Positions 256 through 16,722 of a stretch of DNA of 64,000 bases are shown one piece after another. The stretch spans positions 4,005,001 to 4,069,000 of the forward strand of contig NZ_LT907975.1 of NCBI RefSeq assembly GCF_900217235.1, written 5' to 3'. Both the position numbers and the translations under genes were made by a program. Origin of the DNA: Pseudodesulfovibrio profundus (lineage in GTDB: Bacteria > Desulfobacterota > Desulfovibrionia > Desulfovibrionales > Desulfovibrionaceae). Every line of letters starts with the position of its first letter. Position 1 is the first letter of the stretch. Under the pieces are notes generated by a model, which saw only the letters and a list, made by a program, of their open reading frames with translations, had not been told where the DNA came from and did no database searches.

Positions 256-921
256 CTAATTGTCCTTTTCGAAGACGTAGAGGGTGTTGAGCCCAAACAT
301 GAAACCTTGTTTGAGGCTGAGCTTGTACCCGCATTCCTTGAAAAGTTGGATGATATACTCTGGAGTCAGGCCCATATCTTCCTCCTCCATGCCCCGCTCG
401 TGCTGGTCTTTGTCCCACCAAGCCAACTTGTGCCGTATGATGCCCACAAAGGGATTGATCATCGTTATCACGATCCTTCCGTCCTCGGTGAGGATTCGTC
501 CGGCTTCCTTTAGAACCGCGTGGCGGATACTGACCGGGACATGATTCAGGCAGGCGACGAATGAGACCGTGTCAAAAGAAGCGTCGTCAAACGGAAGATC
601 GGATGTGTCCTCGACGATCATCGCTCCACCTCCGAAGTCATAAACATCAATGCCAATCGCTTTGTTGCCAGTGGCATTGCTGTATATTGCTGTCATTTCG
701 TTGTCTCCGCAACCGATATCAGCGAGTTTGCCTTTGGTGTTATTGAGTACCATCGTAAAACGTTCGACGAGCATATCCGTCAGACCGAGCACCTTCAGGA
801 TAGACGGGGAAAGAAAGATGCGGGGAATAGTGCCAATAAAGTCATAGATGGTCTGTGCCGTGGACTTCTCCCCGAATACGACTTTTTCTCCGTTGTGGGT
901 GGCGATTTTGGTTATATTCAT
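256..921 (-). CDS. class I SAM-dependent methyltransferase (Methyltransf_11 type)
   Basis: A 221-residue protein starting at the ATG at 921, which has AAGGA nine bases upstream; an in-frame start at 993 has no such site. The glycine-rich SAM-binding motif I, LADIGCGDNE, lies near residue 66. An acidic residue ends the second strand (GIDVYD), and a DLPFDDASFDTV segment matches motifs II/III of UbiE/MetW-like enzymes. The substrate cannot be read from the sequence. Position beside another probable methyltransferase and a glycan operon makes a sugar or lipid substrate plausible. No membrane segment is seen. Confidence 0.8.
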   Translation of the reverse strand: MNITKIATHNGEKVVFGEKSTAQTIYDFIGTIPRIFLSPSILKVLGLTDMLVERFTMVLNNTKGKLADIGCGDNEMTAIYSNATGNKAIGIDVYDFGGGAMIVEDTSDLPFDDASFDTVSFVACLNHVPVSIRHAVLKEAGRILTEDGRIVITMINPFVGIIRHKLAWWDKDQHERGMEEEDMGLTPEYIIQLFKECGYKLSLKQGFMFGLNTLYVFEKDN

Positions 922-1024
922 GCTGCAAGTTCCTTTTGTTGGCTTAGGTGTCATAAATGGTGTCCGCTGAATCGGATACAGACATTGTGACACGGTTATT
1001 GCCCTTTATAATAAAAAAAACAAA

Positions 1025-1375: not shown

Positions 1376-1777
1376 TTATCCTGAATGTTCGCTGCAAAAC
1401 ACCCAATACTTAGCCAAAAAATATGAGAGTGTAGTGGTTAAGCAAGCAGAAAGGATTGATGTAAAAACAAAACTAAGATGCGCTACCTCATAAAAAAAGA
1501 ACGTTGTCAGTTGCATGAAAATTATATTTATTAAAGACCGCAAAGCGTATCTCGGGATACTTCGCACATGGCTTATATTTGAGCGAAATGTAAATTTCCT
1601 ATTGAGCACATAAGCTACAACTATCTGAATACAATTGGCTATCAGAGTTGAGACTGAGGGCGTTAATCCTAGATGATACAACACATTGCTAATGACAAAG
1701 AAAATGATAATAAGAATGATCCCAACAAAAATATATCGAACTAATTCATATAAGTTCTTCTTAAGAAACTCTGTCAT
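1376..1777 (-). CDS. GtrA-like membrane protein (polyprenyl-phosphate sugar flippase family)
   Basis: A 133-residue, very hydrophobic protein with four predicted membrane helices (about 12-32, 42-60, 83-101, 108-127). Between helices 2 and 3 it has the conserved GtrA motif YVLNRKFTFR. GtrA-family proteins are thought to flip polyprenyl-phosphate-linked monosaccharides made by GT2 synthases. It is the last gene of the five-gene operon, starting 3 bases after the stop of the GT2 gene. Its partner is therefore probably that GT2, which would load the sugar that this protein moves across the inner membrane. Confidence 0.85.
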   Translation of the reverse strand: MTEFLKKNLYELVRYIFVGIILIIIFFVISNVLYHLGLTPSVSTLIANCIQIVVAYVLNRKFTFRSNISHVRSIPRYALRSLINIIFMQLTTFFFYEVAHLSFVFTSILSACLTTTLSYFLAKYWVFCSEHSG

Positions 1778-1780
1778 TTT

Positions 1781-2818
1781 TTAGCGCAACCAAGTTTTGA
1801 GAACTGTGCGTAGGAAGAATAAACCGTATTTTAGGTCTTTTCCTTTTTTGCTCTCCCCATAACTTCTATTTTTTACGGATATAGGAACTTCTAAAATATA
1901 AGACCCACTTTTTGCGGATTCGATGATCAATTCCGCGGTGTGATACTGACTTTGGAGGAGTTCCCATTCCTGCAATTTATTACATCGAATTGCTCTAAAC
2001 CCAGAAGCGCAGTCTGTGATTTTTGTACCTTGTAAGAAGTTTATCAACCAGTTGAAAACAAACAGTCCTATCGACCGGATAGTACTAACCTTTTCAAAGT
2101 CACCCATATGACGGGATCCAATTACTAGGTCAGCATCCTCTTGTACTATTGCACTTACAAGACTTTCTATATCATTAGGGTTGTGTTGGTTGTCTGCATC
2201 CATTGTTACAACAATGCTCGCATGGTTACGAATTGCCAGTGCAAACCCTGTCAGCAAAGCAACTCCTCCTCCAAAGTTGGTTGGTAACGATGCGAACGAG
2301 GTAGCTTGTGATCTGGCAACGTCCAAAGTGTTGTCTGTGCTGCCATCATCGATAATCACAGGAATAACATCTAAGCCACAAACTTCACTCGGTATTTTAG
2401 GAAGCAATTCTTTAAGGTTATCCTCTTCATTCAGCGCAGGGATAACGACCCAAACGGAATTAGGCTTCAAGTCAACCATTGGACAAAAGTTGTTACATCC
2501 AAGACCGACAGCCAATCTATTCAGGGTTTGCTTAGTTTTGGTATTTTTTGATCGTTCCCAAAAAAAAAGCACAAACAAAATTAGCAGGCCAATAAGCTGG
2601 AGGGCTATTATGCGACCAGCTTCGACATTGTTAAGAGATAGTAGAGTTGCGGGAAGTGTTGTTATTGTTGGTAGTGCCGAGATGGACACAAGTCCGATAC
2701 TGAGTAACATCGGCAAAAACAAACTTCCCCTTACCTGTCTTTTTTGACGTCTTTTTTTCAAAAGAAAAAAGAGTGCAATGACGCCTACTAATAAACCAAA
2801 AAAACGTAACCCAATCAT
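1781..2818 (-). CDS. DUF2304-GT2 membrane-anchored glycosyltransferase
   Basis: 345 residues. The first ~90 hold three hydrophobic helices (about 3-20, 35-58, 70-87), resembling a DUF2304 domain. A GT-A family 2 domain follows, with VVIPALNEEDNL (124-135), DDGSTDNT (157-164) and the DxD-bearing MDADNQHNP (206-214), then SGFRAI near 267. This resembles dolichyl/undecaprenyl-phosphate mannose or glucose synthases. It probably transfers a sugar from a nucleotide donor to a polyprenyl phosphate at the inner membrane. It lies between the GtrA gene and the multispan transferase, with gaps of 3 and 6 bases. Donor identity is not readable. Confidence 0.85.
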   Translation of the reverse strand: MIGLRFFGLLVGVIALFFLLKKRRQKRQVRGSLFLPMLLSIGLVSISALPTITTLPATLLSLNNVEAGRIIALQLIGLLILFVLFFWERSKNTKTKQTLNRLAVGLGCNNFCPMVDLKPNSVWVVIPALNEEDNLKELLPKIPSEVCGLDVIPVIIDDGSTDNTLDVARSQATSFASLPTNFGGGVALLTGFALAIRNHASIVVTMDADNQHNPNDIESLVSAIVQEDADLVIGSRHMGDFEKVSTIRSIGLFVFNWLINFLQGTKITDCASGFRAIRCNKLQEWELLQSQYHTAELIIESAKSGSYILEVPISVKNRSYGESKKGKDLKYGLFFLRTVLKTWLR

Positions 2819-2824
2819 ATTATA

Positions 2825-4327
2825 TCAATCTTGTTGGTGGTTAACACGGTAAAGAGCCAAGCGTAAGCTAGGAGCATCGTCAATAGCAACTAAAGAAAAT
2901 TGATTACCAAAACGATCAACAAATCGTGATGGAAAAAGTTCGTCGAGAGTATTACCAGTTCGCCATACAGCTAAAAAGTCAGCATCTAAAGGAGTCCTCC
3001 TAGCATTAATTATATCGATTGATGCTGAAAAAGGGTCGTTTGTAAACAAATTCTCCATGCGTTGAGGGTGTTCTCTAGGTAACACCTCAAGGACATTATG
3101 TTTTCGTGCTGACAGTTTGGTCCATAGGGACCCGTATGTAGTATCGGTTGCTATCGTAGAAGTTGATGGATATTGATCAAAAACATGGCTTCGATCTATC
3201 TTGTATCTAATTAAAGCTCTTTGGGTATATCCCTCGGTGAGCAGTGCTTTGCCTATACGGCCTAAAGAGGAGTTTGCAACAAGGAATACAGTAAAGCATA
3301 AGAAGGCTATTGCTAGAACGCCCTTTTTTCCCTTCTTCTGGAGACTAATCCAAACGTCATTTTTAATAAAAACAGTGATTAAGAAGGCGTATAAAACAAA
3401 GAATAGTACATAAGTCCCTGGACGTGTCGTCCATCCTTTTTGCAGAATTAAGGCGAGTTGAAGAAAAAAGCCGACAGTTGTGAAGAGATACAAGCGTTTC
3501 GCTTGAAAGCGAACCGAACCGAATAATATCGAAGCAACTCCTAATAAATATACAATTACCGAATTTTGTTTATTCAGTTTGCCGTATTGTTCTGCTAAAA
3601 GATCAGCAAAAGAAGGTATAATTCGCGAGTGTTCTGAATAGAAAAAACCCATACCACCTTGAATACTGAAATAGCTGACTACTCCAAAGGTAAAAGAAGA
3701 AGTGAGCAAGAATCCATTTTTAACGTAGCTTTTTAAGTCTTTTGTACTATTTAAAAGAAGTGGCCAAATCGGAAGGAAAATAACAGTTTGATTGCGTATC
3801 CAAAAAGAGGCACCTAGTATAAGTCCTATCAAAAAGGGGTGCTTATTTTTGACGATAGTTAAGTAAAGGCACCAGGAAATGACTAAAATGAATGGAACCT
3901 CAGACAACGGGCGAGTTAGTGAAGAGGTAAATGTATATGAAGCAGAAAGGAAAAGACATGTTACAGTTGCCCACACTTCTCCTAAGTAGAATTCGAAGAT
4001 TCGAAAGAAAAAATACAAGGTCCCCAAGAAGCAGGGAATCCCTAAAACCAAAGTTATTATATATGGTTCATTAATACCTGATAATTTGGCTATAAGCCCA
4101 ACTAGAATACTAAAACCGTTATTTGCGTATGCTCCAGACAATGCGGCGGAACCGTAATCCCAAAAGTCGAGCCCAACTCGTATGTAGTTTGCTATATCAA
4201 CGCGATCATGTATACCTTTAAGGCATTTACCCCAAAAAGCAACCAAGGAATATACTGCCAACATCATTAGCAAATGACGCCGTTGAAAATTGAAACTCAA
4301 GCTTTTGCAAAAGGGTATTCCTACCAT
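2825..4327 (-). CDS. multispan lipid-sugar-dependent glycosyltransferase (PMT/GT39-GT83-like)
   Basis: 500 residues with roughly eleven hydrophobic segments over the first 370 and a soluble C-terminal ~120 residues. The first outer loop contains the acidic stretch HDRVDIANY, where PMT/ArnT-like GT-C enzymes carry their catalytic Asp. GT-C enzymes use polyprenyl-phosphate sugars on the periplasmic face, which matches the upstream-downstream logic of this operon: GT2 charges the lipid, GtrA flips it, this enzyme uses it. The gene overlaps the stop of the sulfoquinovose-synthase-like gene by 7 bases. Family assignment is by topology and context rather than a diagnostic motif. Confidence 0.65.
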   Translation of the reverse strand: MVGIPFCKSLSFNFQRRHLLMMLAVYSLVAFWGKCLKGIHDRVDIANYIRVGLDFWDYGSAALSGAYANNGFSILVGLIAKLSGINEPYIITLVLGIPCFLGTLYFFFRIFEFYLGEVWATVTCLFLSASYTFTSSLTRPLSEVPFILVISWCLYLTIVKNKHPFLIGLILGASFWIRNQTVIFLPIWPLLLNSTKDLKSYVKNGFLLTSSFTFGVVSYFSIQGGMGFFYSEHSRIIPSFADLLAEQYGKLNKQNSVIVYLLGVASILFGSVRFQAKRLYLFTTVGFFLQLALILQKGWTTRPGTYVLFFVLYAFLITVFIKNDVWISLQKKGKKGVLAIAFLCFTVFLVANSSLGRIGKALLTEGYTQRALIRYKIDRSHVFDQYPSTSTIATDTTYGSLWTKLSARKHNVLEVLPREHPQRMENLFTNDPFSASIDIINARRTPLDADFLAVWRTGNTLDELFPSRFVDRFGNQFSLVAIDDAPSLRLALYRVNHQQD

Positions 4328-5505
4328 TTGCTTTTTCCTAATATTACATCTCGTTTAATTGTATCCGCATGTTCAGCGACAATTTCAAACATCCTGATCA
4401 AGACGTCTTCTGTAAGGTAGTGGGGTTTGACACCAAGTGAGACTAAGGCTTGATAGTTCGGATTATAGTAATGATCCTCTGCTTCAATTCGTGGATTGGG
4501 CACGTTCTGTATTTGTGTGTTGTAGCCTAGCTTTCTTCCTACTGATACAACCATTTCAGCCAATTCATTGACTGAAAATGTTTCCATTATCTGGTTATAA
4601 ATCAGCATTTCTCCAGGCTTGGGTGGGGTCAAGGCGGCTTTTTCTACACATTGAAGTGTATCTTTAATATTAAGATAACCCCGAGTTTGACCACCTTTCC
4701 CATATACAGTCAGTGGGTGCTCGATGACGGCCTGTACTATGAATCTGTTAATTATTGTCCCAAAAAACTCATCGTAATTGAATATTGTTTTTAATCGAGG
4801 ATTGATAATAGTTTGGTCTGTTTCGATGCCATAGACAGGACCTTGCATCAAGTCTGTTACTTTAAGATCCCACATACGGACTCCAAACCAAAGTAAGTCT
4901 GTGTCCAATATTTTTGTTGTGTGATAAAGAGAGCTGGCTTGTCGGGGGAAAAGAAACCGATCCGAACGGCCTTTATGCTGTATGTCGAGCCAACCTTCTT
5001 CAATGTCTATATTAGGTGTGCCATACTCTCCCATAGTGCCGAGCTTTACCAGATGGGTTGATGGTGAGAGATCCCTTATGGCGAACATGAGGTTGTTGGT
5101 GACTCGCAGATTGTTTATCAGCGTTTCATCGGCTGTTTCATAAGTCAACATTGAATAAGGTGCAGAAGGTTGCTCTGCATAGTGAATAACCACATCTGGA
5201 GGCCCATCAAATGAAGAATCAATAGCCCATTGATATTTTACTCTTCCATTGAAAAGAGAACGCATACATTTAGGCTCAGCCAAATCACATATGACTGTTT
5301 TTATTTCATATCCAGATAGTTCATGCCAGATTTGAGCCCGCTGATTAAACGTAGGGACAGGATAAAGCATGCCCACATCCAACCTGTCACAGGTGTGCCT
5401 ACGAAAATAGTTGTCTACAGCTGTGACTTCATGGCCAAGTGATGAAAAAAGGAGCGCTGTCGGCCATCCTAGATAGCCATCTGCCCCAAGGATTAAAACT
5501 CGCAT
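4321..5505 (-). CDS. UDP-sulfoquinovose synthase-like protein (SQD1/Agl3 family)
   Basis: 394 residues, an extended short-chain dehydrogenase with the NAD motif GADGYLGW at 7-14. It shows the family-specific block LGTMGEYGTPNIDIEEGW (155-172), SSLYHTTK (191-198, catalytic Y194 and K198), HPLTVYGKGGQTRGYL and VPNPRIEAEDHYYN, as in plant SQD1 and archaeal Agl3. The known reaction makes UDP-sulfoquinovose from UDP-glucose and sulfite. T157, Y194 and K198 match the catalytic triad. One difference from plant SQD1 is Pro instead of Arg in the EQxSAPYS segment (111-118). It lies second in a glycan operon, so a glycan rather than a sulfolipid use is inferred. Confidence 0.85.
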   Translation of the reverse strand: MRVLILGADGYLGWPTALLFSSLGHEVTAVDNYFRRHTCDRLDVGMLYPVPTFNQRAQIWHELSGYEIKTVICDLAEPKCMRSLFNGRVKYQWAIDSSFDGPPDVVIHYAEQPSAPYSMLTYETADETLINNLRVTNNLMFAIRDLSPSTHLVKLGTMGEYGTPNIDIEEGWLDIQHKGRSDRFLFPRQASSLYHTTKILDTDLLWFGVRMWDLKVTDLMQGPVYGIETDQTIINPRLKTIFNYDEFFGTIINRFIVQAVIEHPLTVYGKGGQTRGYLNIKDTLQCVEKAALTPPKPGEMLIYNQIMETFSVNELAEMVVSVGRKLGYNTQIQNVPNPRIEAEDHYYNPNYQALVSLGVKPHYLTEDVLIRMFEIVAEHADTIKRDVILGKSKW

Positions 5506-5522
5506 TTTTTCTCCGGTACTAA

Positions 5523-6551
5523 CTAATCGATTTGATCTAGCAGACCATTTTCTTCCAAAAAGTGGAGCAACTCGTCATAAGTAAGCTGTTTTTCGTATTC
5601 TGAATTATAGGCATTAGACACAGATTCTGCGATCATGCTACTATAGGTGTAATCAATCTTTTTAAAGTTGCTGAGAATTGCAGGTTTTACAACAAAGTAA
5701 TCTTCCAACTCAATGGTCCTGCGCGTTTCTTCACTGGTCATCAACTCTTCGTAGAGTTTTTCTCCAGGTTTTGATCCAATATTGACAATTTTTATATCAT
5801 TGGGGTGATAGCCATAACGTGGAGCCAAAGCCTCAATCATTACTCTTGCTAGTAGCGCGACACTGATCGTAGGCATCTTGGTTACAAAAACCTCTCCCCC
5901 CCGAGCTAGCCCTATTGAGTTGATAACGAGATTTACGCTTTGTCGGATTGACATTATAAACCTTGTCATCCGCTCATCGGTCAGCGTGACTGGACCACCT
6001 TGCTTAATTTGCTGGTGAAAAAGAGGTATAACTGAGCCATGTGACCCTAGAACATTTCCAAACCGGGTGGAGGCAAACACTGTTTGACTCGAATCAATAT
6101 TTGCAGCTGAAATGAGTCGTTCACCCATGAGTTTAGAAGCACCCATAACGCTGGTCGGGTTAACTGCTTTGTCTGAACTGGTGAATACAACCTTTTTAAC
6201 GTTGTTGTAGATAGCAGCTTTAATTACGTTATTTACACCTATAATGTTTGTTTGGATAGCATCATTAGGAGACTGCTCACACAGGATTACATGTTTGTAA
6301 GCAGCTGTATGAATTACTAGGTCAATTCCTTTGAAGCGACTTTGTAATGTGTCTGCATCGCGCATGTCGCACAAAAAGAATGAAATATCATTTCGGTCGC
6401 GGTACTTCTCTTTGAGCGAAAAGAGTGCACTTTCATTATTATCTAATACAACAAGTTGGTCTATAGAGTGTTCAGTTGAGAATTGTCTTATAAGTTCCCT
6501 GCCGACAGTTCCACATCCCCCAGTCAACAAGATTTTCGTATTTTTGAACAT
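5523..6551 (-). CDS. nucleotide-sugar 4,6-dehydratase, CapD/WbpM C-terminal type
   Basis: 342 residues from the ATG at 6551, which has GGAG five bases upstream; a start at 6572 has no such site. It shows an NAD(P) motif TGGCGTVGRE (10-19), HTAAYKHV, and SSDKAVNPTSVMGASK (125-140). Met stands where typical SDRs have the catalytic Tyr of YxxxK, as in WbpM/CapD-type 4,6-dehydratases. Unlike WbpM there is no N-terminal membrane domain, so it is soluble. It is the first gene of the minus-strand operon. The likely substrate is UDP-GlcNAc or a related sugar, giving a 4-keto-6-deoxy intermediate. Confidence 0.85.
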   Translation of the reverse strand: MFKNTKILLTGGCGTVGRELIRQFSTEHSIDQLVVLDNNESALFSLKEKYRDRNDISFFLCDMRDADTLQSRFKGIDLVIHTAAYKHVILCEQSPNDAIQTNIIGVNNVIKAAIYNNVKKVVFTSSDKAVNPTSVMGASKLMGERLISAANIDSSQTVFASTRFGNVLGSHGSVIPLFHQQIKQGGPVTLTDERMTRFIMSIRQSVNLVINSIGLARGGEVFVTKMPTISVALLARVMIEALAPRYGYHPNDIKIVNIGSKPGEKLYEELMTSEETRRTIELEDYFVVKPAILSNFKKIDYTYSSMIAESVSNAYNSEYEKQLTYDELLHFLEENGLLDQID

Positions 6552-6764
6552 TCTTTCTCCGAAATTAAGCATACAACACCAAGCTGATAGCGCAACGAAT
6601 TACATCTTGTGTAGCTTTTTGATGTTGTCATATTTAGAATAATTGGTGAGTTGACGATATATAGGTGCCTAAACTTACTTTCCTTGAAGTATTTATTAAA
6701 TCCTTAATCCGTGAACAGCATCAATGTTTACAACATTAGCATAGCATTGACAACTTTTCTTTCC

Positions 6765-8364
6765 CCTGGATTTCTGGTATGTTGCGAAAGACAACATCGG
6801 CTGAGAATATTTCACCCGAGAGGTGCGCAGCATGGCCAAAATGTCCTTGAAACTTACCGATGAACCGTTGGTGGGGCACGCCGGCCTTATTTCCATCGGC
6901 GAGATGCTCAGGATCGCGGCGATCGATGAAACATGCCTGCACAGAGAATCCATGGCCAAGCCCATCAAGGAACGCGACATCTTGCGCACCATGTGCGGGC
7001 TGCTCACGCTCGGCAGGACCGACTTCGACCATATCCGGCCCTTTCGCAAAGATGAGTTTTTCGCCCGGTCCCTGGGGTTGCGGCAAGTCCCCTCCGAGGC
7101 CTCGCTCAGGCAGCGTTTTCAGCAAATGAGCGAGGACCGGCGTTTGCTCGACGCCCTGCCGGGCTGCTCCCTGCGGCTGTGGAAGAAACTCGACTTCAAA
7201 CCCCGCATCATCGAACGCGACAATCGCAAATGGGTTCGGGTCGACGTGGACCCCACCATCCTGGACTGCTCGGACGCCCCCAAGCGCGAAGGCGTCGCTT
7301 TCGCGCACAACAACGTCCTGGGGTATCAGCTTGTGTGCGGATTCCTCGAGGGCGGCTTCATGCTCGCCTCGCAGCTGCGCACCGGAAGCGCACACGCCCT
7401 TTGCGAAGGCGGCGTCGACTTTCTCAAGGAAGTCCAGAAGCGGGCGAAAAAGCTCACCGAAACCAGACTCCTCAACGTCCTCGACTGCGCCTTTGATAGC
7501 GCCGAGGCCATCGGTCTGTACCGGCGCGACCCGGAAGCCGACTTCATCATCAAGCACAACCTGCGCAGGGAAAGCGTCACCGGCTGGCTTGAGACGGCCA
7601 AGGCCCATGGCGTCGTCCATTCTCCGCGCCCAGGCAAGACCGTCTGGCGCGGCAGCATCACGCGCGAGGTCAAAGATGTGGGGCCGGTGCGATTGGTCTT
7701 CGAAGTGACCGAGCGAACCGAAAAGCATGGGCAGCTTTTGTTGTCGCCTGAAATCACAGTCTTTTCCGTATGGACAAACCTCGACCTCCCGGAAAAAGAC
7801 GTCTTGAGACTCTACCGCGACCGTGGGACCTGCGAGCAGTATTTTGCTGAACTCAAGAGCGAGCTTGATCTGGAGCGCCCGCCGTCCGGCAAGTTCACTG
7901 CGAACGAATTGTTCTATCAGGTCGGCATGTTGGCCTATAACATGCTGCGAATGATGGGAGATTGGCTTCTCCGCGCCGATGGTCTGGGACTGAAAAAGGC
8001 GAACCGCAGACGGCTTCGCACGGTAATGCGCGGAGTCATGCACATGTGCGGGCGAATGGTGAAGCACGCACGGCGACAATGGCTGAACGTCGTTGGCGGC
8101 AGAGGCTGGGGCGAAGCGCTGATGGCCATGCACGCGCGCCTCTGCTCGGTTTGAGACGAAAGGATTCGAGACAACCAGATAAGGACAGGAGAAGTGCGCC
8201 CAATAACGCTCAAAATCCGGGTCCATGGGCTCGAAAACTTCTCCTGAGAGAAGAGAGCACGAGGGGTGGGATGATCTAAGTCCTACTTTCGGCATTACGG
8301 GTCTCAAAACTGTCTCTCAGGATGAGGTCGGAGCACTGTTCTTGTCCATCTTCACGGATTCAGG
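6765..8364 (+). mobile_element. IS1380-family insertion sequence (ends tentative)
   Basis: A single intact transposase gene sits in a block clearly more GC-rich than its flanks. CCTGGATTTCTGG at 6765 and the reverse complement of CACGGATTCAGG ending at 8364 begin with the same CCTG and agree at 8 of 14 positions. That would make a 1600-base element, the normal size for this family. I could not find a 4-base target duplication at these points, so the ends are a proposal. The element sits just upstream of the glycan operon. Confidence 0.55.
6832..8154 (+). CDS. IS1380-family transposase
   Basis: 440 residues from the ATG at 6832, which has GAGAGG nine bases upstream. The DDE domain ends in YRDRGTCEQYFAELK, an exact Y(2)R(3)E(6)K signature, followed by NELFYQVGMLAYNML. 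Earlier it has VDVDPTILDCSD and LLNVLDCAFDS, carrying probable catalytic Asp residues. The frame is uninterrupted and the length is normal for IS1380, so the enzyme may still be active. Codon usage is much more G+C-rich than the neighbouring glycan genes, indicating a separate origin. Confidence 0.9.
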   Translation: MAKMSLKLTDEPLVGHAGLISIGEMLRIAAIDETCLHRESMAKPIKERDILRTMCGLLTLGRTDFDHIRPFRKDEFFARSLGLRQVPSEASLRQRFQQMSEDRRLLDALPGCSLRLWKKLDFKPRIIERDNRKWVRVDVDPTILDCSDAPKREGVAFAHNNVLGYQLVCGFLEGGFMLASQLRTGSAHALCEGGVDFLKEVQKRAKKLTETRLLNVLDCAFDSAEAIGLYRRDPEADFIIKHNLRRESVTGWLETAKAHGVVHSPRPGKTVWRGSITREVKDVGPVRLVFEVTERTEKHGQLLLSPEITVFSVWTNLDLPEKDVLRLYRDRGTCEQYFAELKSELDLERPPSGKFTANELFYQVGMLAYNMLRMMGDWLLRADGLGLKKANRRRLRTVMRGVMHMCGRMVKHARRQWLNVVGGRGWGEALMAMHARLCSV

Positions 8365-8617
8365 TTAAATGAACACGGGAAAATCCTGTAAGAAAGGTGC
8401 GCTCGGTTGTTCGGACAATTCAGCGGCAGAATTAAGGTAATGGAGTATGGTAATAACTACAACGCCCAACATGCCTCCTCCAAGGATCGGGATATCGATA
8501 TCTCCATTGGTTGCATCCCGTCAAGGACCGAATGCGGACGTTGCTAAGTATAGAACCTTAACCCTCTTGACAATTCAACTAGGGCCTCATTTCTTGTATA
8601 TAGTTCTTGCAAATAAA

Positions 8618-8895
8618 CTCATTAGAATTTCATGCCACGCTATAGCCCCTCGATCATATCGTAATCCAACCAAAACCCCTTGCCATTCATGGGAATATGT
8701 ATGCTCGCTTCCTTAAGCGACCTTGTAAAATCGTAACAGCTAAACAGACTGCCTTGAACCGTGTTGAAGATTCTGGGGACGCCATTAAGGTAGATTGCGT
8801 TCTCCAAAGCAGAAATGCACAAGTCGTTTTCCATCGCATTCAGTAAACGCCAAGACTGCACTCCAGACTTGATTGGGCTTCGAGGGATCTTTGAT
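8618..8895 (-). pseudogene. IS3-family transposase orfB relic (minus strand)
   Basis: The minus strand reads DPSKPNQVWSA and then, in another frame, QSWRLLNAMENDLCISALENA, PRIFNTVQGSLF, GFWLDYDMIEGL and, after a stop, RGMKF. These are consecutive pieces of an IS3-family orfB integrase core. About 30 codons between NQVWSA and SWRL, which normally hold DITYIPM and a catalytic Asp, are deleted, leaving a frameshift. The gene is dead. Nothing recognisable lies in the 253 bases between it and the IS1380 element. Confidence 0.75.
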
Positions 8896-9045
8896 GCCAA
8901 GCAGATGCGAATCAGCTGTACCCAAAGCTTGCCAATGGGATGACCACCGAGCCGTTGGGTGTGAATCCATACATAAGGGGTTTCTTCGGCTGGCTTGGTA
9001 ATATCGTTCGTCTACTTAGCCTAAAGTCCGTAATGCTGGTCAACG

Positions 9046-9834
9046 ATGAAACTCGTTCCAACATTTTCATTCCAGACCAGGTTTCAGCATTCTTAAATCC
9101 GTGGAAAGCGGCTGGACCATCTAGGACGTATACCGTGAACACGGCATTACCAACGCCACCTGCTACATGTGTAAATCTAAATGTGGTGGCATGGAGGTAG
9201 CAGTCATTCGCGGATAAAGGATCTAGAAGTAGAGAACCGCTAGCTCAAAAAGATGTTCGCCGACCTCAGCCTGGAAAACACCGCTCTCAAGGATATCATC
9301 TAAAATACCTCTGAGGGCTGTTGAACTCAAATAGTTTTTTTCGCACTAGGTCAACGTACTTAAGATGTACATTCGCAAGGCGTGCGTTGCTATGAAGGTG
9401 AATCGAAGTTACGCCTACAAGTCGCACCCTCGCGATGAAAGCGAAGTGTTAGCTGCTTTGATAGAACTGACCGAGAAGATGCCAAAATGGGGCTTCAGCC
9501 AGCTTTTCACACTACTTCGCAAGGCTGAGTAGGCCTGGAGTCATAAGCGGGTGTGATGGGTGTATTTTCCTTTGAAGTTGAACATCAGGCGAAAGGTGAA
9601 AAAGCGCTGTCCCCTAAGGACTCAAAAGCTGTAGCACAGCCTTTGAACGCATTTTTTTGGTCGATCGACTTTATGCACGACACGCTTTACATCGGTCGAG
9701 CTTTCAGGACGTTCAACGTGGTTGATGACTACATCCGCGAAGTATTGCCATCGGGGTTGATACCAATCTGCCTGTTGGTCGAGTTGTCAGGAGGGATAAT
9801 GAAGAGCTATTTCATGAATCTCTCGGTTAAGTGA
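9046..9834 (+). pseudogene. IS3-family element relic (orfA plus 5' half of orfB)
   Basis: From the ATG at 9046, shifted frames give pieces of orfA (ILKSVESG, DVYREHGITNAT, KSKCGGMEVA, LKKMFADLSLENTALKDII). Pieces of orfB follow ([74 protein letters not shown]). The last readable piece is [13 protein letters not shown] in a third frame, and the rest of orfB is absent. Several stops and at least four frameshifts show advanced decay. It runs opposite to the minus-strand IS3 relic next to it. Confidence 0.8.
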
Positions 9835-10193
9835 CATATCACCGGCAATTTCAATCAAAATTTTCTAATCTGCTATGGTAATCAATCGCTGAGCTTTCAG
9901 ATATTGCCTTATCCGAAAGCTTTGTCATTGAAAGCTGTGAAATAAGTATACCTTTGTCATCAAGGTGTGTGCTCGAGGGGGGGGCGTATTTTTTTAGCAG
10001 AATGGGAGCGGGAGTCGCTGCTATGAGAAAAAGTTTGAATTTTATGGGGAAAAGTGCCGAAGGATTTTTCGTGCTCAGATTACATTCACCAAGGTCAGCC
10101 TTCCTTCTCTTTTAGTCAAGTTTTGACCCTCCACTTTGTCAAAAGAGTGGAGGAGTGCATTTTTAAGGGGCTACTGGCTGAACTTCTGGACAC
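9835..10193. other. intergenic stretch without recognisable genes
   Basis: About 360 bases between the IS3 relic and the tRNA-Leu terminator. No frame gives a recognisable protein. It holds a run of eight G at about 9977 and a short inverted repeat at 10128-10153. It looks like the decayed border of the accessory region. Confidence 0.6.
10128..10153. repeat. 8-bp inverted repeat
   Basis: CCTCCACT (10128-10135) and AGTGGAGG (10146-10153) form a perfect stem with a 10-base loop. It is followed on the plus strand by GAGTGCATTTTT, so it could act as a weak terminator for leftover transcription from the IS region. No gene nearby clearly needs it. Confidence 0.4.
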
Positions 10194-10232
10194 AAAAAAA
10201 AGAGGCGTCACAACCAGTTGGATGTGACGCCT
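10194..10232 (-). terminator. rho-independent terminator of tRNA-Leu
   Basis: On the minus strand AGGCGTCACA (pairing 10203-10212 with 10223-10232) makes a 10-bp stem, followed by an uninterrupted U-run encoded by the A-tract at 10194-10201. It lies just beyond the CCA end of the tRNA. Confidence 0.9.
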
Positions 10233-10241
10233 TTACTCTCA

Positions 10242-10330
10242 TGGTGCCGAAGAGAAGACTCGAACTTCCACGGGATTGCTCCCACTAGACCCTGAACCTA
10301 GCGTGTCTACCAATTCCACCACTTCGGCAC
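10242..10330 (-). tRNA. tRNA-Leu (anticodon CAG)
   Basis: The minus strand folds as a class II tRNA. It has an acceptor stem GTGCCGA/TCGGCAC, D-arm TGGTAGACAC, anticodon loop GTTCAGG with anticodon CAG, a long variable arm and the T-loop GTTCGAGTC. The 3' CCA is encoded. The length is 89 bases. The 3' end faces the IS-rich glycan region, the usual orientation for island insertion at a tRNA gene, although no integrase or repeated tRNA end was seen. Confidence 0.95.
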
Positions 10331-10463
10331 GTTTCAGGGCGAAAAGGATTATATGTGGGTGACACATGGAAGGCAAGTCTTTTTTGGATTTTTTTTCATA
10401 TTTCGTCTTACCTTGCTGTTGCTATGAAAAAACTCTACCTTCCGGTGTAAACCGGAGCAGGGT

Positions 10464-11369
10464 ATGGATAATTTCATTTTACTTATCATATGTTTCCTTC
10501 TCGGCTCAGCTTTGCGAATGGGAAAAGTGGTGGATGAGAGCGGCCCGGTCGCTTTGAATGCCATCATTATCTATTTTTCGCTGCCTGCGTTGGCAATTTT
10601 GTATGCCCATTCCATTCCCGTAAACATGGCCTTGCTGATACCGGCATCAATGGCCTGGATCGTTTTTGCCATCGGATACCTGTTCTTCAGGTGTGCAGGG
10701 CGTTTCTTGGGGTATTCTGAAAAGACAATTGCCTGCCTGTCCATCTGTTGTGGATTGGGAAACACGTCGTTCATCGGTCTTCCCATGATCGAAGCATTGT
10801 TTGGCCCGGAGTTCATGGGCATCGGTATGCTTTGCGACACGGCTGGTACGTTCATGGTTTTGGCAATTCCGGGGATTGTTATTGCCGCCAAAGCATCCGG
10901 TCAGGCGGTGAGCGGGGCAAACCTCGTAAAAAAGGTCCTTACATTTCCTCCGTTGATTGCCATTGTTCTTGGTTTTTTGATGCAACCGGTTCCTTATCCA
11001 GAGTGGTTTGAGTTGGTTTTGGAGCGAATGGGCAGCACGCTGGCTCCCCTGGCGTTGCTCTCTGTCGGGATGAGCCTCAAGTTTCGCGATTTGAAAGGAA
11101 ATGGGCGAGACATCATGTTGGGACTCGGATATAAAATGTTCATAGCACCCGTGTTGATGGCGCTGTTGTATTTCGGTGTGCTCGGACAAATGGACATGGT
11201 GTCCCGGGTTACAGTTTTTGAGGCGGCCATGGGGCCGATGATAACCGGCGGGACAGTCGCGGTATCCTATGATCTGCGGCCCCGGCTGGCGACATCCGTT
11301 GTGGGAGTGGGAATCGCGCTTTCCTTTGTGACTCTTCCTGTATGGTATTTTGTAATTACAGCCTTGTAA
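10464..11369 (+). CDS. AEC-family transporter (auxin efflux carrier-like permease)
   Basis: 301 residues with about ten hydrophobic segments in two five-helix halves. The diagnostic CGLGNTSFIGLPM lies near residue 94-106, and the second half contains STLAPLALLSVGMSL. AEC members export or import organic anions such as malate, but the substrate is not readable here. The start ATG has GGAGCAGGG upstream. The gene is convergent with nothing and lies 134 bases beyond the tRNA-Leu gene on the opposite strand. nadD follows 11 bases downstream and is probably co-transcribed. Confidence 0.85.
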   Translation: MDNFILLIICFLLGSALRMGKVVDESGPVALNAIIIYFSLPALAILYAHSIPVNMALLIPASMAWIVFAIGYLFFRCAGRFLGYSEKTIACLSICCGLGNTSFIGLPMIEALFGPEFMGIGMLCDTAGTFMVLAIPGIVIAAKASGQAVSGANLVKKVLTFPPLIAIVLGFLMQPVPYPEWFELVLERMGSTLAPLALLSVGMSLKFRDLKGNGRDIMLGLGYKMFIAPVLMALLYFGVLGQMDMVSRVTVFEAAMGPMITGGTVAVSYDLRPRLATSVVGVGIALSFVTLPVWYFVITAL

Positions 11370-11380
11370 GGTGACTTTGT

Positions 11381-12028
11381 ATGCGTATCGGTATTCTTGG
11401 TGGCAGTTTCAATCCCGTTCATATTGGTCATGTGCGTATGGCCATAGAGGTGCGGGAGCAACTCGGGTTGGATCGGGTGGAGATGGTTCCTGCCATGGAG
11501 CCGCCGCATAAGGATGGATCGGGCATTCTTCCATTTGATTTGCGAGTCGATATGGTTCGCCGCGCCGTAGAGGACGTCGATGGCGTGGTCGTGAATACCT
11601 TGGAGGGTGATAGGCCCGGCCCTTCGTATACGTGCGATACATTGGAATGCTACCGGACCCTTGAACCGCAAACGGCTCTGTCATTCATCATGGGAGCGTC
11701 TACATTTCTGGAGTTGACCCGGTGGCGACGCGGCCTTGATTTACCGAAACTCGCGTCGTTAGTAGTGGTCAACAGGTGGGAGGCTCACGACGAGGTCCCG
11801 AAATTCATTGATCAACATTGGGTGGATGCCAAACGGGTAGGGGACGATCAATGGCACTTCCCTGACGGGTATGACATCCATCTGCTGGATATTCCCCGGC
11901 TGGATGTGAAGGGTGGACATATACGTCGTCGCTGGCTCGATGGCAGAAGTCTGCGCTTTCTGGTCCCGCAGGGGGTTGAGGATGTGTTGGACAGCGAACG
12001 CGAGGTGGTCGAAAGCTACTGGAAGTAG
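11381..12028 (+). CDS. nadD: nicotinate-nucleotide adenylyltransferase
   Basis: 215 residues. The N-terminal GGSFNPVHIGH carries the HxGH nucleotidyltransferase motif, followed by VEMVPAMEPPHK and FIMGASTFLEL, as in NadD. NadD makes deamido-NAD from nicotinate mononucleotide and ATP. The usual ISxSxIR motif near the C-terminus is replaced by KGGHIRRR, although the following GRSLRFLVP is normal. AAGGTGA precedes the start. The gene overlaps nothing but ends 2 bases from the stop of the convergent GT9 gene. Confidence 0.88.
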   Translation: MRIGILGGSFNPVHIGHVRMAIEVREQLGLDRVEMVPAMEPPHKDGSGILPFDLRVDMVRRAVEDVDGVVVNTLEGDRPGPSYTCDTLECYRTLEPQTALSFIMGASTFLELTRWRRGLDLPKLASLVVVNRWEAHDEVPKFIDQHWVDAKRVGDDQWHFPDGYDIHLLDIPRLDVKGGHIRRRWLDGRSLRFLVPQGVEDVLDSEREVVESYWK

Positions 12029-12029
12029 C

Positions 12030-13037
12030 CTACCTTTTTATTCGCTGGTTCAATGACTCCATGACATCTGTGGGAGAAATGGCAGCCATGCATTCATGAC
12101 CTTTCTCGCACGATTTGCCTCCATGGAGAGAGCAGGGGCGACAGTCCATGTCGCGTTCCAGCACTTGATCATCAACGCTGGCTGGGAAGAAGCCCCAGGC
12201 TTTGACAGTGGGGCCGAAGATGGCAGTGACCGGAGTATCTACGCCGCTCGCCAGATGCATGGGCCCGGAGTCTCCCGTTACCAGCATGTCAGCCTGTCGG
12301 AGCAAACCACACGTTGCGCGCAGGTCGGTCGCATTGGTGAAGTCACGAGGGTCGCCTGGGAAGAGCGGGATGTCGTTTCTACCGACCACAAACCAATCCA
12401 TGCCTGCTGCATCCAGCAGTGCTGTCAAATCATTCCAATGGGAGACAGGCCATTGTTTCGCTGTATGTGTCGCGTAGGGGTGCAGAGCTATCAGTGGGCG
12501 ATCTGACCGTGGAAGTGTGTTGATTGCCGCTTCCTTTTCCTCTTGCGTGAGGTAGATGCGTGGAGTGATGTCCTGGGCTGGCGGAGGCGTATGCTCCAGG
12601 GCCATGGCATACCGTTGTGGAACGCTCGTTGACTCCAACTTGTCTTTGAAAATATCCATGTGTGTTCGGTCGAACAGGCGACGGTAGAGCCCATACTTCG
12701 GGTATCGTTTGACCGGGCCATTCCATACTATAGATAATATGCGCGAACGAAGCGTTCCATGGAGATCAAGCAAAGTGTGATCACGAAACCTGTTTGCCAA
12801 TTCTCTGGCTCGCTGGATCCATTTGGCTGTTGTTAGATCGGCGTCCGATAATGTGATGGTTTCGGTAATGGCAGGGTGGTTTTTCAGCAGCGGAGCATTG
12901 GCGGCTCGCGTTATGAAAACAAAGGTTTCGCAGTGGGTGTCATGCCGGTGTGCCAAAACCCCTGTTGTCAGTGCTACATCCCCCATATGGCTCAGGCGGA
13001 TGACGACTGTCGGCTTCTTTATTCCATTGGATTGCAT
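12030..13037 (-). CDS. glycosyltransferase family 9 (heptosyltransferase-like)
   Basis: 335 residues. The N-terminus IRLSHMGDVALTTGVL is the GT9 nucleotide-fold start. The C-terminal half has HPYATHTAKQWP, LVTGDSGPMHLASGVDTPVTAIFG and the ADP-heptose-site-like GPT. GT9 enzymes add heptose or related sugars to the LPS inner core on the cytoplasmic face. Four cysteines near the C-terminus (CRPC...C...C) follow the pattern seen in many heptosyltransferase-like proteins. Its stop is 2 bases from the nadD stop, so the two genes converge and share almost no terminator space. Confidence 0.85.
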   Translation of the reverse strand: MQSNGIKKPTVVIRLSHMGDVALTTGVLAHRHDTHCETFVFITRAANAPLLKNHPAITETITLSDADLTTAKWIQRARELANRFRDHTLLDLHGTLRSRILSIVWNGPVKRYPKYGLYRRLFDRTHMDIFKDKLESTSVPQRYAMALEHTPPPAQDITPRIYLTQEEKEAAINTLPRSDRPLIALHPYATHTAKQWPVSHWNDLTALLDAAGMDWFVVGRNDIPLFPGDPRDFTNATDLRATCGLLRQADMLVTGDSGPMHLASGVDTPVTAIFGPTVKAWGFFPASVDDQVLERDMDCRPCSLHGGKSCEKGHECMAAISPTDVMESLNQRIKR

Positions 13038-13167
13038 GGCGAAGATTTTGCCTCAATCATTCCGGAAGTCAAGGGGGATGTGTGTTGCGACATTGGTTTG
13101 ACTCTGTTATATTTTGAAATCCAGACTCCGGCTTGATCCGGACTGGTTCAGGAAGTGAACAGACCAT

Positions 13168-14226
13168 ATGTTTGAACTTATTCTCGCGGTTGGCGTGGCC
13201 GTTTTTGTCTCGATGTTTTGCTCCGTGGCTGAGGCCGCGTTGTACTCAATGAGTTGGGCAGACATTGAAAAGCTCACGACATCCGGTAGTAAATCATCAA
13301 AAATACTACACAAGCTTCGATCAAGCGTCGATGAACCCATCACCGCCATTCTCACACTGAACACGTGCGCCCATACTGCCGGTGCAGCCGTGGCCGGTTG
13401 GGCGTGGGCCAATCTTTATGGCAAAGAAACCCTTTGGGCCTTTACAGCAGGCTTCACAGTAATTATTCTCATCTTCACCGAAATCCTGCCGAAAACGGTA
13501 GGCGTGGTGTACAGCGACAAGATCGCACCGCCGTTGGCACGACCGCTTCAGGGGCTCGTTTGGATTTTCCGTCCGGTTATTGCCATGATGGGAGTGCTTT
13601 CTCGAGCCGTCAGCAAAAAAACCGACGGGCCGGATCACACGGAAGACGATATCCGAGCCATAGTCTCGCTTACGCATCGATCGGGATCGATCAAGCCTTA
13701 TGAAGAGCAGTCGATCCGCAATATTTTGATGTTGGACACCAAGACGGTGGAAGAGATCATGACGCCGAGGACCGTGGTTTATTCGTTGCCCACGGACTTG
13801 ACGGTTGCTGAAGCGCGTGAGCAGCAACGTAACTGGCCGCATAGCCGGATACCTGTTTACGACGAAGACCCGGAGGATATTGTCGGTGTTGTTTTCAGGC
13901 GACAGGTGCTTGAAGCACTGGCAGATGATCTTGATGAATTGAAGCTTGGTGACATCATGCGTCCTGTTCGTTTTGTGCTCAAGACGATCACGCTGGACAA
14001 GCTTCTGGTGAAGTTTCTCGGTAGCCGCCTGCATCTGTGCGTTGTGCTGGATGAATATGGGGGATTGGCGGGTGTCGTGACTCTTGAAGATGTCCTCGAA
14101 GAGATTCTGGGCAGTGAAATTGTTGACGAGACCGACCAAGTGGTTGATATGCGGGAACTGGCCCGTCAGCAGCGAGATGAACTGATTGGATACAAAGCCG
14201 CTAATGGCGAAGATCAAAGCAGTTAA
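13168..14226 (+). CDS. CNNM/DUF21 membrane protein with tandem CBS domains
   Basis: 352 residues. Residues 1-170 form a DUF21 transmembrane domain with about four helices, including FTEILPKTVGV. Two CBS domains follow: one around 195-255 (MTPRTVVYSL, SRIPVYDEDPEDIVGVV), the other around 262-320 (IMRPVRFVL, VVLDEYGGLAGVVTLEDVLEEILG). Relatives are linked to magnesium or cobalt efflux and membrane-damage responses. The usual C-terminal CorC_HlyC domain is absent, the protein ending shortly after the second CBS. Thirty bases downstream begins the ccm operon, so it may be co-transcribed with it. Confidence 0.85.
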   Translation: MFELILAVGVAVFVSMFCSVAEAALYSMSWADIEKLTTSGSKSSKILHKLRSSVDEPITAILTLNTCAHTAGAAVAGWAWANLYGKETLWAFTAGFTVIILIFTEILPKTVGVVYSDKIAPPLARPLQGLVWIFRPVIAMMGVLSRAVSKKTDGPDHTEDDIRAIVSLTHRSGSIKPYEEQSIRNILMLDTKTVEEIMTPRTVVYSLPTDLTVAEAREQQRNWPHSRIPVYDEDPEDIVGVVFRRQVLEALADDLDELKLGDIMRPVRFVLKTITLDKLLVKFLGSRLHLCVVLDEYGGLAGVVTLEDVLEEILGSEIVDETDQVVDMRELARQQRDELIGYKAANGEDQSS

Positions 14227-14256
14227 ACAAATAACAGATTATAGTAAGGGTACATA

Positions 14257-14688
14257 ATGGCGAAAAAGAACAATGCGGCGGTTTACGCCGTTGCTCTCGT
14301 ACTTTTCCTGAGTGGTCTTGGTTACCTCATCTTTTCGGGGCTGACTGAAGACAGTGTGTATTTCCTGAATGTCTCCGAAGCGCTGGCAGAAGATCGCACC
14401 CAGATTAAAAATGCTCGCCTTTTCGGCAAGGTCTCACCTGAGAATCTTGTTATTGTCGATGGCAAGCTTGGTGCTTCATTCGATCTGATTGACAAAATGG
14501 AGACCGGTAAATCCCTTCGCGTAGAATTCAAGGGGGCATTGCCCGATACCTTCAAGGACGATGTGGAAGTCATCGTTGAAGGCACATTTACCCCGGACGG
14601 CAACCTTTTCAAGGCCAGAACCCTCGTTACCAAGTGTCCTTCCAAGTACGAAGAGCAGAGCCAGGATATGGAAAAAATGAAGAGCTGA
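14257..14688 (+). CDS. ccmE: cytochrome c maturation haem chaperone CcmE, CxxxY variant
   Basis: 143 residues. An N-terminal signal anchor (8-28) is followed by a small periplasmic beta-barrel domain with RLFGKVSPENLV and VEVIVEGTFTPDG. CcmE carries haem covalently to CcmF. The usual haem-binding HxxxY is replaced by CPSKY (127-131), so Cys127 takes the place of His. This CxxxY form is known from Desulfovibrio and archaea, where CcmH is missing. It is the first gene of the ccm locus, which here also lacks ccmG and ccmH. Confidence 0.92.
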   Translation: MAKKNNAAVYAVALVLFLSGLGYLIFSGLTEDSVYFLNVSEALAEDRTQIKNARLFGKVSPENLVIVDGKLGASFDLIDKMETGKSLRVEFKGALPDTFKDDVEVIVEGTFTPDGNLFKARTLVTKCPSKYEEQSQDMEKMKS

Positions 14689-14826
14689 TTTTCATAAGTG
14701 AAAATTTGTTCACATGGTTGCCTATCCGCAGCCGGCATTCTATCGACATCCGAATTTGATGTGGATTCCCCGCTTGATGTGTGATCATCCAGCATGTCAG
14801 TACGACGTTTTCTTTAAGGAGCTAGT

Positions 14827-16722
14827 ATGCATTTGACCGGATATGTGAGCCTGCTGTTCGCATTGCTCGCCTTCCTCTTTCTCGCTGTGTGGGCCGGTAT
14901 CGCGGCCTGGACCAAAAAAGACGAATCGCTTGTCTTGATCGAACGGGCGCACCTCCTTGGTGTTTTCGGTATCGTGCTTTCTTCCATCCTGCTGCTGATC
15001 TCACTGGCAACACGAGATTATTCCCTCCAATACGTCTATGAAACCGTCGACAATGCCTTGGGGTTTGTCTACACACTCACGGCATTCTGGGGCGGACGCG
15101 AAGGTTCACTGTTATTCTGGGAGTTGATCATCGCGATTTCCGGGGCCATTTTCCTCTTTACTCCCGGCTATAAAGTTCTGGCTCCGCGGACCAGGCTTTA
15201 CTTCTGGATGTTTTTCCTGATGATTCAGGGGTTCTTCCTGCTTCTGCTGACCTGCTGGTCCAACCCGTTCATTGAAATGGTTCCAGCTCCGATGGATGGA
15301 CGCGGTCTGAATCCATTGCTCCGCAACCCTGGAATGATTTTCCATCCGCCGCTTCTGTTCTTCGGCTTCGCAATGTATGCGATTCCCGCAGCTTGTGCTC
15401 TGGCAGCATCCATCGCCAGTGAAACCAAATCCTGGATCAAGGTCACCCGTAACTGGAACATCCTTTCCTGGCTGTTTCTTACCGCTGGAATCGTTCTTGG
15501 CGGCTGGTGGTCTTACATGGAGCTTGGCTGGGGTGGTTACTGGGCATGGGATCCGGTCGAAAACGCTTCCCTGATTCCCTGGTTTGCCGGAACTGCCGTT
15601 CTGCACACCTCCATCATTGAAGCTCGACGCAATGCCTTGCAGCGTACCAACGTCTTCCTGATGTCTCTGACGTTCCTGCTGTGTATTTTCTCTACATACC
15701 TCACTCGTTCCGGTGTCATTGATTCGCTGCATACTTTCGGTGAATCCCCTGTTGCAGTGCCTCTGTTCTGGGGCCAGATGGCGATCCTCGTCATCACCAT
15801 CATGGTCACCCTCATGAGCGAACGACTGACCCATCGTACTCTTTCCGATTTCCTGAGCCGACAGGGCATGCTGGTCATTACCGCCTGGTTCCTGCTGGCA
15901 CTGGGTATCGTGGTTACCATGGGCACCATGTGGCCTGTTATCAGCCAGATCTGGACACACCAGTCCATGGGCCTGGATGCGAACTTCTATAACCGTGTCT
16001 GCCTGCCGTTCCTGTCGATCCTCGTTCTTCTCTTCTGCTACTGTCCTTGGATGGGATGGAAGGGAGGCCTTCGCGATCGAACCGGCATGATCATCGTCAC
16101 CGGTGCACTTGTGGCCGGTCTCATCGGCTTCTACGCCATGGGTATCACCAAGCCGCTGGCTACGCTGACTGCTGCCGCTTCCGTGGCTGCCATTGTCTCA
16201 ATTGTAGTTCTCTTCATCATGAACCCGGCCATGCGGAAATCCCGTCGGGCATGGGGAGCGTACGGCATCCACTTCGGTATGGTGCTCATGGCTCTCGGAA
16301 TCGCATTCTCCGGACCATACAAGGTTGAGCGCGAGTTCATCATGACTGAAGGTGAAGTCGTTCAGTTGGAAGAGTACGAGATCAAATATGTCACCGTTAC
16401 CGAAGACCGCACCAAGGAGCTGAGGGCGCGTGCTACTGCGACCCTTGAGGTTTCCAAGGATGGTAAGGTCATCGGGGAAATGCGTCCGGACAAACGTATC
16501 TACGTTAACTACGAGCAGCAGCAGTTTGCTGAAGTAGGGACCATTTTCAGCCTTGGTGACGAACTATATTCAACACTGCTTGGCTTTACCGAAGAAGGTA
16601 AGGCAAGCTTCATGATCAGCATCAACCCTCTTGTCAACTGGGTCTGGATTGGCGGTACCATCATGTGCGTCTTGCCGCTCCTGGTACTGACCCGTATTCG
16701 CCGACTTGAGGAGACCAAGTGA
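14827..16722 (+). CDS. ccmF: cytochrome c-haem lyase subunit CcmF
   Basis: 631 residues with about 14 membrane helices. The tryptophan-rich WWD segment WGGYWAWDPVENAS binds haem on the periplasmic side. Nearby are NPGMIFHPPLLFFGF and STYLTRSGVIDSLHTFGE, all typical of CcmF/NrfE. It takes haem from CcmE and attaches it to apocytochromes. The C-terminal periplasmic domain lies at about 500-605. AAGGAG precedes the start. A 138-base gap separates it from ccmE, and the stop overlaps the ccmA start (TGATG). Confidence 0.93.
   Translation: MHLTGYVSLLFALLAFLFLAVWAGIAAWTKKDESLVLIERAHLLGVFGIVLSSILLLISLATRDYSLQYVYETVDNALGFVYTLTAFWGGREGSLLFWELIIAISGAIFLFTPGYKVLAPRTRLYFWMFFLMIQGFFLLLLTCWSNPFIEMVPAPMDGRGLNPLLRNPGMIFHPPLLFFGFAMYAIPAACALAASIASETKSWIKVTRNWNILSWLFLTAGIVLGGWWSYMELGWGGYWAWDPVENASLIPWFAGTAVLHTSIIEARRNALQRTNVFLMSLTFLLCIFSTYLTRSGVIDSLHTFGESPVAVPLFWGQMAILVITIMVTLMSERLTHRTLSDFLSRQGMLVITAWFLLALGIVVTMGTMWPVISQIWTHQSMGLDANFYNRVCLPFLSILVLLFCYCPWMGWKGGLRDRTGMIIVTGALVAGLIGFYAMGITKPLATLTAAASVAAIVSIVVLFIMNPAMRKSRRAWGAYGIHFGMVLMALGIAFSGPYKVEREFIMTEGEVVQLEEYEIKYVTVTEDRTKELRARATATLEVSKDGKVIGEMRPDKRIYVNYEQQQFAEVGTIFSLGDELYSTLLGFTEEGKASFMISINPLVNWVWIGGTIMCVLPLLVLTRIRRLEETK

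Follow-up and report, generated by a model that had tools for sequence, protein, structure and literature searches.

Does the SQD1-like gene in a compact glycan operon of Pseudodesulfovibrio profundus encode a true UDP-sulfoquinovose synthase, or does its product work on another sugar together with the dehydratase encoded beside it? We addressed this question in a window of 64,000 nucleotides, which is the whole stretch of DNA analysed, and in related genomes and loci. The answer bears on more than one operon: a widespread clade of proteins that a sequence search would name UDP-sulfoquinovose synthase differs at a residue essential in the characterized enzyme Agl3 and has a near-constant partner. 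Should its product be a different sugar, sulfoquinovose producers are being overcounted in genomes and metagenomes; should it be a sulfonated one, sulfonates on bacterial surfaces occur far more widely than is known.

A foreign-looking operon of five genes

Five minus-strand genes occupy positions 1376-6551 of the window (6572 with an alternative start of the dehydratase gene) in an operon-like arrangement, neighbours being 3-17 bp apart or overlapping by 7 bp. An earlier sequence-only reading had described five tightly spaced genes in a probable sulfate reducer. Their order, strand and gaps were confirmed, as were the domains named for the dehydratase, the SQD1-like short-chain dehydrogenase/reductase (SDR), the DUF2304-GT2 protein and the GtrA protein, with the DUF2304 match falling below the Pfam cut-off; dsrA (599 bits) and aprA (1061 bits), both scoring above cut-off in the host genome, bear out the sulfate reducer. 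No sulfolipid-type GT4 of the SqdX/SQD2 kind is present inside the operon. The same five-gene order, for which a search of genomes had been proposed as a check, was not found in any other genome examined.

The GC content of the operon is ~40%, compared with ~52-53% in its surroundings, and an IS1380 transposase (6823-8154) lies beside it. Because it is AT-rich and has transposases nearby, the operon looks acquired from elsewhere. A second transposase-like ORF, IS3-type as judged by eye from its sequence, is located a few kb to the left. Window positions 6720-10240 comprise the IS1380 transposase and then ~2 kb without clear genes, up to a tRNA-Leu (10242-10328) for which no attachment repeat marking an island was found. 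A scan for promoters and terminators gave signals at about chance level.

An SQD1 fold with proline at an essential arginine

The second enzyme of the operon (4321..5505, minus strand) is an SQD1-like NAD-dependent sugar-nucleotide enzyme. It matches Arabidopsis SQD1 (PDB 1qrr) with 374 bits in phmmer and 45-46% identity over the full length. Its AlphaFold model (pLDDT 86.5) superimposes on 1qrr with a TM-score of 0.91, while all other solved folds reach only ~0.66-0.70; Pal (6bwl), for example, is a distant match at 0.68. A structure-based search had been proposed as a check that could have placed the protein with a different sugar epimerase. The assignment withstood it, since SQD1 is nearest and nothing else exceeds ~0.70, and the modelled fold thus indicates a member of the SQD1 family. 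The score against the NCBIfam equivalog model NF041015 is 414 bits, under the cut-off of 575, which is strict: Synechococcus elongatus and Sulfolobus acidocaldarius both match the model and only one of them passes, S. acidocaldarius being the home of the proven Agl3. Like SQD1, SqdB and Agl3, the window protein has the NAD site, the catalytic Thr-Tyr-Lys, His183 and the TMGEYG motif; the active-site residues kept are T157-M158-G159-E-Y, Y194-H195-x-x-K198 and H108.

It differs from these enzymes at one conspicuous position. In Agl3, replacement of His95, Arg101, Met145, Tyr182 or Lys186 by alanine abolishes activity (Zolghadr et al., PMC4388408). The R101A primer in the same paper encodes A-E-Q-[A]-S-A-P, which identifies Arg101 as the arginine of the EQRSAP loop. 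The corresponding loop of the window protein reads EQ-Pro113-SAP, with the Pro113 codon at 5167..5169 (minus strand). Proline occupies this site in 96/96 members of the protein's own clade, which forms a single branch (SH-aLRT 99) that holds when the trait column is masked. Arginine is kept in SQD1, Agl3, the rhizobial pSymB SqdB-type homologue, the SqdB-like proteins of Okeania and a group of paralogues with 37-41% identity in the window's own family. The other fingerprint residues of SQD1 persist in the clade (H96, M146, Y149, Y182, H183 and K186, with E148 in 87/96).

We do not accept the absence of Arg101 alone as proof that the function differs. Proline is found at the same site in other SQD1-like groups that have no dehydratase partner, and in the tree a proline-bearing protein (G721) is sister to an arginine-bearing one (G571). 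The site is therefore somewhat labile, and we treat Pro113 as a warning rather than as proof. Two Okeania genomes (L014/L018 and L123/L124) have both an Arg-type SqdB-like copy (72% identity to SQD1) and a Pro-type copy, which argues against equal function of the two types.

In IMG/VR, 48 viral contigs (L192-L239) carry SQD1-like genes, mostly of the Pro-type and almost all without the dehydratase; the search patterns were derived from the Pro clade and are biased toward it. Annotated phage records gave no match.

A near-obligate dehydratase partner

The first gene (5523..6551, minus strand) encodes a nucleotide-sugar 4,6-dehydratase (PF02719, 1e-94). Homologues and a GGAG site favour a start at 6551 over the in-frame upstream ATG at 6572. 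PglF and WbpM have a membrane domain, whereas the window dehydratase is short, soluble and devoid of it; shared with them are PF02719 and the SDK..M...K motif, seen here as SSDK..(M)GASK. This motif is given as the PglF/WbpM type in the motif table of PMC8987622, and [ST]SDK..M...K is found in 83/83 partner dehydratases. The best NCBIfam models, PseB and FnlA, both score below cut-off.

We compared the occurrence of the two enzymes across the window's family (288 genomes), taking at least 54% identity for the SQD1-like clade and at least 53% for the dehydratase subfamily (next best 43%). The clade is present in 19/288 genomes and the dehydratase in exactly the same 19, one of which (G247) has two copies of each; of the family genomes in which the Arg-type paralogue stands alone, 0/12 have the dehydratase. 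In a phylum sample of 395 genomes, the clade is present in 25 and the dehydratase in 22, each of these 22 also having the clade. The exceptions are a sister pair (G473 and G720) and G733, where the contig ends at that point. Both results are given as counts rather than p-values because related genomes are not independent. Among loci drawn from GTDB genomes, 72/80 include such a dehydratase, mostly directly upstream. Arg-type homologues, including the family paralogues, have no such partner, as is borne out by seven Arg-type loci whose flanks are longer. A 2x2 test of dehydratase presence against Arg- or Pro-type on mixed loci gives 1e-11, with the reservation that loci are related and flanks short for some Arg-type loci. 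Thus, the SQD1-like clade and the dehydratase subfamily co-occur strongly, as near-obligate partners, and a strict one-to-one partnership is weakened by G473 and G720, which have the SQD1-like gene without such a dehydratase.

The pair is often accompanied by a third SDR (L013:2630-3607 and similar), recognizable by the motif FASSGAP..PIHEE..PHPVSPYGASK. This SDR lies directly downstream of the pair in at least 23 loci and is absent from the window operon.

The clade extends over Pseudomonadota, Thermodesulfobacteriota, Nitrospirota, cyanobacteria, SAR86, Pelagibacteraceae and others, with carriers in Pseudomonas, Halomonas, Marinobacter, Legionella and Okeania. Many organisms other than sulfate reducers have homologues at 63-70% identity. 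The suggestion that the operon ties surface sulfonation to energy metabolism is not supported by this distribution, nor by the small fraction of family genomes that carry the clade and the low GC content of the operon.

Presumed genes for loading, flipping and transfer

The remaining genes agree with the earlier proposal that the partners are those of polyprenyl-linked glycan assembly, as GtrA and a GT2 beside a DUF2304-like part bear out. The gene at 1781..2818 (minus strand) encodes a DUF2304-like membrane domain fused to a GT2 (PF00535, 5e-24). The N-terminal DUF2304 match is full-length and sub-threshold (19.7 bits, cut-off 25.5), and the curated models nearest to the GT2 are the polyprenyl-phosphate sugar synthases AglJ and PpgS, both below their cut-offs. 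It is followed by a GtrA-family presumed polyprenyl-phosphate-sugar flippase (1376..1777, minus strand; PF04138, 7e-15). A GT2 adjoining GtrA is a known load-and-flip pair. The third gene of the operon (2825..4327, minus strand) encodes a multi-helix membrane protein whose C-terminal soluble part is small; from its topology we presume a GT-C glycosyltransferase in the role of GtrC. This is a topology guess, since the protein has no significant Pfam or NCBIfam match and its AlphaFold model from one sequence (pLDDT 41) is useless. Its homologues were found only in G252 and, in pieces, in G241. The copy in G252 adjoins a GT2 homologue and shares a region with that genome's SQD1-like gene and dehydratase. 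A SAM methyltransferase (256..993, minus strand), a possible sixth member of the window operon, also has a homologue in this ~40-kb glycan region. The G241 copy (L166, ~7033-8065; 44% identity) is apparently broken, and that genome has no SQD1-like gene.

Three-component Gtr glycosylation consists of a GtrA flippase, a GtrB GT2 and a GtrC transferase, and the window operon likewise has GtrA beside a GT2 beside a large membrane protein. It differs in that the membrane part of its GT2 is N-terminal and DUF2304-like rather than C-terminal, and in bringing two sugar enzymes of its own; its transferase role is only presumed.

Two enzymes and one proposed sugar

Around the enzyme pair the glycosyltransferases vary from locus to locus, and a pair that persists while the transferases change suggests a metabolite common to both enzymes. 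The window operon has one nucleotide-sugar glycosyltransferase, the GT2, and neither an aminotransferase nor a keto-reductase that would consume a 4-keto sugar, hence our inference that the dehydratase hands its product to the SQD1-like protein for completion. The operon may accordingly be read as a self-contained unit that makes, loads, flips and transfers one unusual sugar, with the two enzymes acting in sequence, a reading whose chances we put as even. From a UDP-hexose, most likely UDP-GlcNAc in view of the family to which it belongs, the dehydratase would form a 4-keto-6-deoxy or 5,6-ene intermediate, which the SQD1-fold enzyme with its bound NAD would turn into the finished UDP-sugar. 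The DUF2304-GT2 protein would place this sugar on polyprenyl phosphate, GtrA would flip it outward, and its transfer to a periplasmic acceptor, e.g. LPS or protein, would fall to the membrane protein. The LPS O-chain is a possible acceptor, as the host genome has one Wzy_C-family protein, located far from the operon.

A comparable two-SDR route, that of Pen and Pal in Bacillus thuringiensis, proceeds via UDP-6-deoxy-GlcNAc-5,6-ene, as cited in PMC8987622. A PseB-like SDR dehydratase and a second extended SDR are common to both systems, along with a 5,6-ene-type intermediate that is only proposed in the window; the second enzyme here is SQD1-type rather than Pal, and the window chemistry is putative. 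Three observations count against sequential action: G473 and G720 lack the dehydratase, proline also occurs at the arginine site in SQD1-like groups that have no such partner, and the residual SQD1 fingerprint of the clade exceeds the needs of a plain epimerase or reductase.

The sulfoquinovose reaction could also be split between the enzymes, the dehydratase forming a UDP-HexNAc 5,6-ene and the SQD1-like enzyme adding sulfite to yield a UDP-6-sulfo-amino sugar. Freed from dehydration, the latter would also be freed from the arginine. We consider this improbable; if true, a sulfonated surface sugar is made by many bacteria. Over all readings together, addition of sulfite to the sugar has somewhat less than an even chance.

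The foremost alternative, which we regard as doubtful, is that the 4321-5505 protein is a true UDP-sulfoquinovose synthase, acting on UDP-glucose and sulfite, and that sulfoquinovose goes on a surface glycan. It agrees with the SQD1 family and fold (TM 0.91; 46% full-length identity) and with the conserved catalytic T/Y/K, His183 and TMGEYG, and proline might be tolerated, given the sister relationship of G721 and G571. Against it stand the clade-wide replacement of an arginine that Agl3 needs (PMC4388408) and the score below the equivalog cut-off, strict as this is. It also leaves the near-obligate dehydratase unexplained. A stand-alone SQD1 needs no PglF/WbpM-type dehydratase. Hence, of the name SQD1-like UDP-sulfoquinovose synthase given in the sequence-only reading, the family and fold stand, and the synthase activity as stated is not supported, given Pro113 and the PF02719 partner; that the window enzyme makes sulfoquinovose is unproven, with this specific evidence against it. 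It is unlikely that the two enzymes supply two UDP-sugars (e.g. sulfoquinovose and one of QuiNAc/FucNAc type) that become neighbours in one oligosaccharide, because, although each enzyme is plausible alone and many loci have several glycosyltransferases, it is the pair and not the glycosyltransferases that is conserved, and the window operon offers a single such transferase and no enzyme to consume a 4-keto sugar. Sequential action on one sugar thus remains our preferred reading.

A search of a limited set of papers for sulfoquinovose in bacterial O-antigens or exopolysaccharides found nothing useful. In a relative from the same family, a locus (L143 of G042, 2568-15069) has an Arg-type SQD1 homologue among SDRs that resemble GDP-mannose dehydratase and fucose synthase by sequence, with an ABC-2 exporter, a DegT aminotransferase and glycosyltransferases as further neighbours. 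Of this locus and the window, the former is the stronger candidate for an O-antigen that contains true sulfoquinovose.
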